Source: Salinicola corii (GTDB lineage: Bacteria; Pseudomonadota; Gammaproteobacteria; Pseudomonadales; Halomonadaceae). Taken from it: a stretch of DNA of 64,000 nucleotides. The stretch spans positions 1 through 64,000 of the forward strand of contig NZ_VTPX01000010.1 in NCBI RefSeq assembly GCF_008298015.1, in the 5' to 3' direction. The position numbers and the translations under genes are program-made. Under the pieces are notes generated by a model. That model did no database searches. It was not told the DNA's origin and saw only the letters and a list, made by a program, of their open reading frames with translations. Every line of letters starts with the position of its first letter. The first letter of the stretch is position 1. Positions 32,156-32,875 of this stretch are shown piece after piece.

Positions 32156-32542
32156 ATGCGTCATCGTAAGAGTGGTCGTCATCTGAATCGGACCAGCTCG
32201 CATCGGCACGCCATGTTCAAGAACATGTGCACCTCGCTGGTCGAGCATGAAGTGATCAAGACTACCCTGCCCAAAGCCAAGGAGCTGCGTCGTCATATCG
32301 AGCCGCTGATCACTCTGGCCAAGCAGGATAGCGTGGCGAATCGCCGTCTGGCGTTCAGCCGTACCCGCTCCAAGGAAGCCGTCGGCAAGCTCTTCAACGA
32401 GCTTGGCCCGCGTTACGTCAATCGCCCGGGCGGTTACGTCCGTGTGCTGAAGTGCGGTTTCCGCACCGGCGACAACGCCCCGATGGCCTACATCGAGCTG
32501 GTCGATCGCCCCGTTGTTGAAGAAGCCGCTGGCGACGAGTAA
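32156..32542 (+). CDS. rplQ: 50S ribosomal protein L17
   Basis: Tunnel-exit protein and last gene of the alpha operon. The 128-aa product starts [20 protein letters not shown] and contains [22 protein letters not shown] palindromic element begins 7 bp after its stop. Confidence 0.97.
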
Positions 32543-32549
32543 GTCCCTA

Positions 32550-32816
32550 GGGCCTGTTTACACTATCCACGTGGCCACGACGGCGCCGGTTTTATCGTGA
32601 GGCTAGGCGCGAACCTCGGGTTTTGGTGGTTCCAAGCCCTTGGTGAGCAACAACGCCTCGAGGGAAAACCGGCCCGTCCCTTCGGGTTGCGCGTCAACTA
32701 CGCCCAGGCTTCGTTGCGTGACTGGATAAGGGACCCCCCCTTATCGGCGTCCCGCGCCTTGCCTGAACGCAGTTGACGCAGCAACGTGGCTCGCGGCGCA
32801 TAGTGTGAACAGGCCC
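32550..32816. repeat. 267-bp imperfect palindromic element (MITE-like or structured RNA)
   Basis: The ends are inverted repeats matching at 16 of 17 positions: GGGCCTGTTTACACTAT (32550-32566) and ATAGTGTGAACAGGCCC (32800-32816). Further in, GTTGCGCGTCAACT pairs with AGTTGACGCAGCAAC near the right end. At the centre GATAAGGG (32725-32732) pairs perfectly with CCCTTATC (32738-32745). No coding frame in it resembles a known protein. It fills most of the rplQ-uvrA gap. A non-autonomous transposable element is my first guess, and a structured RNA or attenuator the second. No obvious target duplication is visible. Confidence 0.6.
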
Positions 32817-32834
32817 GAGCTTCCTGCACGACAT

Positions 32835-32875
32835 AAAACCGGCTGCCCAAGTGATTGGGCAGCCGGTTTTCTTTT
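32835..32875. terminator. Bidirectional intrinsic terminator between rplQ and uvrA
   Basis: A perfect 16-bp stem AAAACCGGCTGCCCAA / TTGGGCAGCCGGTTTT (32835-32850 / 32855-32870) with loop GTGA is flanked by A and T runs on both sides. It can end the alpha operon from the left and uvrA from the right. Confidence 0.93.

Follow-up and report, generated by a model that had tools for sequence, protein, structure and literature searches.

A palindromic element between rplQ and its terminator in Salinicola corii, probably an IS5-type MITE with a folded, two-module body

What is the 267-bp palindrome that separates rplQ from its terminator in Salinicola corii, a mobile element or a structured RNA, and how did it come to be there? 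The window, by which is meant the full 64,000-nt stretch of DNA that was analysed, carries this element at positions 32550..32816, delimited by its ends, fold, copies and empty sites, with no strand assigned to it. It starts 7 bp beyond rplQ (32156..32542, + strand), the stop codon of which ends at 32542, and it is followed by a terminator-like stem at 32835..32870 (+ strand), a predicted intrinsic terminator; both are context outside the element, and rplQ is named here from an earlier, sequence-only reading of this DNA and from its conserved place in 18/18 genomes of the genus. The terminal inverted repeats were placed by comparison of end motifs at 32550..32566 (+ strand) and 32800..32816 (- strand), and the left end, GGGCCTGTTTACACTAT, matches the right end read as its reverse complement, GGGCCTGTTCACACTAT, at 16 of 17 positions. 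The end motif occurs with up to three mismatches at two sites in the window, both of them ends of the element, where 0.31 would be expected by chance, and at least two matches were seen in 3 of 100 shuffled windows. Both ends fit the degenerate end pattern exactly and are placed as the termini of one palindrome. The ORFs of at least 40 aa lying wholly within the element specify 44 and 59 aa, and longer ones merely overlap it. The sequence-only reading had described inverted terminal repeats, an insertion 7 bp past the rplQ stop, a terminator after the element and no coding capacity, and direct comparison bore out all four points. It had also proposed counting genome copies, looking for empty sites in relatives and searching for an insertion sequence (IS) with the same ends, and it had offered an either/or test, in which repetition would denote a mobile element and covariation a structured RNA.

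The end of rplQ could be located in 18/18 Salinicola genomes, S. corii included, and the site between rplQ and the terminator was found empty, as had been looked for, in 17/17 of the others, the terminator following without the element. The nearest empty sites read TAAGTCCC-NN-GCTTC and the occupied site TAAGTCCC-TA-[267]-GA-GCTTCC, a comparison that fits a 2-bp target duplication, with a left copy, TA, at 32548..32549 that is missing from the relatives' empty sites, and a right copy at 32817..32818 that has presumably mutated since and now reads GA. The proposed count of copies returned seven places by blastn in the element's own genome, the window copy included. One is a second full-length copy (C24:393725-393991) with ends GGGTCTGTTCCCGTTTC and TA within CTAG on both sides, and the remainder are partial copies or short palindromes barely longer than the ends, the end-only ones measuring 52 bp (C4), 45 bp (C22), 69 bp (C24) and 52 bp (C29). 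Used as query, the window copy found matches in 9/58 genomes including its own (8/57 relatives), all Salinicola, and none in E. coli genomes, while the sister copy matched in 56/250 genomes of the family, again including its own. These results support a MITE (non-autonomous transposable element) that entered at the TA of a CTAG-like site.

Copies lacking one or both hairpins of the body are present. At a single insertion site, recognisable by its shared flanks, two Salinicola genomes have 265 and 266 bp, another has about 200 bp and S. corii has 68 bp, so hairpins are lost while the ends remain. Matches on plasmids were few (Azotobacter, Pseudomonas, Halomonas); the plasmid collection gave no match to the Polaromonas copy, and the phage collection none to either the sister copy or the Polaromonas copy. 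On two Azotobacter chroococcum plasmids (L079, L081), copies directly adjoin an IS630-type IS at a common CTAG site. At another locus (L046, G012:C37:76500-80000), a pair of copies whose ends are unusual stand in opposite orientation about 1.1 kb apart, one of them within an ORF that by eye resembles a transporter.

ISs sharing these ends were also found. On plasmids of Halomonas, Azotobacter (twice), Raoultella (ISPa67), Aeromonas and Pseudomonas avellanae, six ISs of 855-857 bp with an IS5 annotation have the ends GGGNCTGTTNNC beside TA in CTAG, and the end of the P. avellanae IS equals that of the second full-length copy of S. corii over 17 bp. The scan of genome contigs with TAGGGCCTGTTCACACTAT described below yielded two further elements, of 830 and 818 bp, that contain IS5 transposase frames; one end of each is identical to the window-type end and the other differs from it at 3/19 positions. 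NF033580 and PF13340/PF01609 are matched by the transposases; of the individual frames in the 830- and 818-bp elements, one exceeds the curated cut-off (134 bits vs 110) and the others do not. A TA target and CTAG are suggestive of IS630, and a partner of that family was considered; NF033545 has matches in 8/18 genomes of the genus, the end motif was seen in 0/12 loci examined of 18, and IS5 was preferred. Integron attC sites, retrons and group II introns were weighed from shape alone and set aside, since the boundaries are accounted for by IS5-type ends. ISPa67 and similar IS5 ISs (LC735983) have in common with the rplQ element the end motif and the TA inside CTAG, but they carry a transposase, whereas the rplQ element has only their ends. 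IS427-group ISs are listed with 2-bp repeats in the available part of PMC3281130. Searches of the S. corii genome returned no intact matching IS: the Halomonas transposase as query retrieved one fragment with three stops, and NF033580 five pieces, all below the cut-off, so the window copy may be stranded. Matches to NF033580 occur in 6/18 Salinicola genomes, and one of the 21 loci examined (L126, which ends at a contig end) has GGGCCTGTTGACG beside TA.

The body of the element folds at -154.3 kcal/mol, compared with -105.4 (sd 4.5) for shuffled sequences (z -10.8; 0/200 as low). It had been described as an imperfect palindrome nested around a perfect hairpin; the perfect hairpin is there, GATAAGGG (32725-32732) pairing with CCCTTATC (32738-32745), but the body is an outer stem that encloses a mini-hairpin flanked by two long hairpins, and not a single nested palindrome. 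R1, a covariance model built on a single hairpin, was applied at E <=1e-4, with at most 10 candidates scored per genome, strict filters and rough E-values. It places stem-loop module A at 32677..32788 on the - strand (102.4 bits, this copy being part of the R1 training set) and module B, an inverted copy of A, at 32576..32687 on the + strand (58.3 bits). The two meet at a shared centre, CCCTTCGGG / CCCGAAGGG (32678..32686, no strand), recognised from column identity and sequence comparison. The model matches again on the opposite strand, overlapping at the centre, in 18/19 sources, the 19 being the window and 18 loci taken from the 30 numbered L307-L336. The body thus consists of one stem-loop module present twice in inverted orientation, with CCCGAAGGG common to both copies.

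For comparison of sequences, 81 full-length copies were gathered, of which 51 remain at <95% identity and 18 at <80%. This set was restricted beforehand to copies of about 255-286 bp, and the narrow range of its lengths is therefore no evidence of constraint; five loci with boundaries not located (L028, L034, L022, L151, L157) and one with Ns (L240) were left out. The centre is weak in 7/81 copies (L213, L279, L290, L021, L059, L162, L164), three of which belong to the 18, and the orientation of these seven is therefore less sure.

For the 18 divergent copies, the RNAalifold consensus has an outer stem, a pair of long hairpins and a mini-hairpin at the centre, and 67/89 of its pairs have at least one change on both sides. 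Applied to 18 rows that include the window itself, the window-copy structure is paired in 86.0% of cells compared with 65.5% when shuffled (0/500 reach the observed value) and 33-42% when slid, and its covariation score is 0.527 vs 0.160, these being controls that leave some relatedness. One inner helix is paired in just 59% of cells. Arms of the same copy pair at 0.92-0.94, and arms swapped between copies at 0.46-0.54. Mean column identity is 0.90 at the ends, 0.55 in the arms and 0.92 in the centre, and the AGGCGC and GCAACG motifs of the internal loop of hairpin A, which are not palindromic, reach 0.82-0.90. The either/or test of the sequence-only reading fails here, since mobility and covariation occur together in the one element.

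Strong folding and covariation are also what would be expected of a structured RNA with a function of its own, carried by the MITE and working either in cis, on rplQ mRNA, or as a small RNA, and since the element precedes the terminator it should be transcribed with rplQ. When the structure is taken from one strand, G-U cells exceed A-C cells by 133 to 53, as an RNA would have it, but such a fold itself favours G-U; for pairs found from both strands the counts are 79 and 59, or 67 and 59 with one pair removed. Across the 51 copies, 25 have more G-U, 14 more A-C and 12 are tied, and the mean folding energies of the two strands are practically equal (-163.9 and -165.7). Against an RNA function there are also the emptiness of the site in every other genome of the genus, a search for a promoter-like site that found none, and Rfam, which had no family at gathering score on the rplQ element or in four relative loci. 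This explanation is judged unlikely, and the covariation, which has no clear strand preference, is read as structure at the level of DNA. Elsewhere in the window, Rfam matched a 5S rRNA and four tRNA genes above cut-off at the left edge (2-1987), and gave a sub-threshold match to the Burkholderia sRNA BcKCsr2 at 32763-32873 (20.2 bits vs a cut-off of 40), a segment spanning the right end and the terminator.

The module is widespread. R1 has matches in 113/369 genomes of the class (own included), from 91/272 sampled genera, and found nothing even at E <=1 in 58 loci (180 kb, some overlapping) that were chosen independently of the element. A set of 29 loci was selected by the hairpin, without TA being demanded by the script and with L322 excluded as it ends at a contig end. 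A clear outer inverted repeat is seen in 28 of these (L334 is without convincing ends), the length is 259-271 bp in 25/29, and TA stands symmetrically on both sides in 20/29. The ends themselves vary, and by our own grouping 16 are like GGGCCTGTT, four like GGGAAACTCTG or GGAACCTCTG, three AGAGCCTRTC (all of one genus) and two GTACTCTTTCAAGG, with one each of GTGCTCTATCAA, GTGTCCCTTAAC and CTCCGTCCAGG, and one unclear.

Bodies selected by the hairpin therefore carry several end types, two of which match two IS5 subgroups. A genome with a GGGAAACGCTGATTAATG-ended copy also has a 1222-bp IS whose ends resemble those of the copy, with 2 and 3 mismatches over 16 positions, and whose transposase matches NF033581, a different IS5 subgroup from NF033580. 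A Salinicola relative has a weak IS5-like frame within a 1228-bp element, the ends of which, GGGAAACGCTG, lie beside CTAG. In genome G545, where copies end in AGAGCCTATC, 4/6 IS5-like stretches examined have ends GGTTCTGTTGACGTT at 822 bp and 2/6 have none, a seventh stretch (L378) having been scanned for end motifs only; that genome holds several copies of the 822-bp IS5-like IS (L372, L373, L375, L376). Among 11 genomes with unusual end types, no PF01609 transposase was found in five and an IS with similar ends in only one, and searches for a partner IS of the remaining end types found none. From the variety of ends on bodies of one kind we infer exchange of ends, as opposed to drift of the ends alongside their ISs.

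A second sample was drawn from the ends, by scanning genome contigs with TAGGGCCTGTTCACACTAT while ignoring the body, and seeking a partner end 35-2600 bp away with up to six mismatches (spacings include both TAs). Among the matches listed, a second end was present in 72/118 stretches, and 48/72 of the spacings fall at 267-271 bp. The other spacings among the matches listed are 43-63 bp (12 cases), 134-163 bp (six), two that are ISs, and one each of 223, 237, 284 and 350 bp; the other 46/118 of the listed stretches have no partner end, by eye about half of them lying near a contig end. Hosts among the matches listed are mostly Burkholderiales, together with Pseudomonadales, some Acidobacteria, Desulfovibrio and others; many of the genomes are MAGs, so the odd hosts may be binning errors. 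Polaromonas genomes carry many copies of the family. The 350-bp copy (L204:191-540, Ramlibacter lithotrophicus) seems to have a second palindromic insertion within one hairpin, and elements of 151 and 163 bp, with a single hairpin between the same ends, occur in distant hosts, a Desulfovibrio (L252) and a Cystobacterineae MAG (L268).

How, then, is the body maintained? It could be that this is an ordinary IS5 MITE with a body of no selected role, the palindromes persisting solely because replication template switching homogenises their arms. Such switching does homogenise inverted-repeat arms, according to the accessible text of PMC8604942, and covariation that is symmetrical between strands fits it, as do the body-less stubs, which indicate that the body can be lost. 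What it does not readily explain is a non-palindromic loop motif in hairpin A that is far better conserved than the arms, the 259-271 bp length kept by most hairpin-selected copies, and a module still recognisable in a third of the sampled genera. The conserved loop motif and steady length speak against homogenisation as the whole story, and as a complete account it is plausible although we lean against it. Much less probable, to the point of being nearly negligible, is a REPIN- or BIME-like element moved by a RAYT transposase. REP ends and the lack of an IS-type target duplication define that class. Two inverted hairpin modules were indeed found here (18/19 sources), but with IS5-type ends, TA duplicated at CTAG-like targets and ISs that share the ends. 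Of the earlier suggestion of a MITE or BIME-like element, the MITE half is upheld by the copies in the genus, the empty sites, the apparent 2-bp duplication and the ends shared with ISs, while the BIME half falls with the IS5-type ends and TA target. REPINs, as portrayed in the available part of PMC3116915, do resemble the rplQ element in their two inverted hairpin modules, compensatory changes and conserved length, likenesses that favour such an origin, but they go with RAYTs, and the modules here are about 100-112 nt.

The reading that we hold with considerable confidence is that of a non-autonomous IS5-type MITE (type II), inserted into a CTAG-like site in the gap between rplQ and terminator in this Salinicola lineage, with TA duplicated, moved in trans, having a body kept for its fold and exchangeable ends, and being here a passive 3'-UTR insertion. 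An element sharing only its ends with an IS jumped into the site and duplicated TA, and an ISPa67-like IS5 transposase would probably have moved it in trans. The folded body may be kept because a single-stranded DNA form aids movement or persistence; the fold might, for example, bring the ends together, or allow a protein to recognise the conserved AGGCGC / GCAACG internal loop. The ends would be exchangeable, bodies of one lineage having probably used more than one IS5 subgroup. At rplQ the insertion leaves the terminator in place and most likely has a passive role, with an effect on the mRNA possible.

A MITE is ordinarily recognised by its ends and regarded as the lineage-specific remnant of a single IS, and in the usual picture of type II MITEs the sequence outside the ends is not so widely shared. 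The rplQ element differs in that its body keeps a two-module fold across many genera, the sequence of the arms being free and the ends of several types. It agrees with the type II MITEs of IS5-family ISs, as summarised in the accessible portion of PMC10969869, in being shorter than 500 bp and gene-free, with terminal inverted repeats shared with an IS, a target duplication and stable stem-loops. Literature searches found no description of this family, subscription papers, including Mattes et al. 2008, being mostly outside their coverage. That work reportedly concerns a MITE of Polaromonas sp. JS666, which may be a member of the family.

A broader proposal, advanced tentatively as a little short of an even prospect, is that this is a mobile body defined by its folded DNA shape and not by its ends: two inverted modules of near-constant length and shape with free stems, found in about one-third of the sampled genera of the class and surviving through exchange of ends among IS5 subgroups. 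If true, selection would be acting on the internal anatomy of a gene-free element that holds its fold over many genera as its ends change; this is directly testable by asking whether pairing of the arms, whatever their letters, affects movement. R1 also labels many otherwise unexplained intergenic palindromes, and it accounts for the perfect palindromes of 43-69 bp in these genomes as remnants left after hairpin loss.
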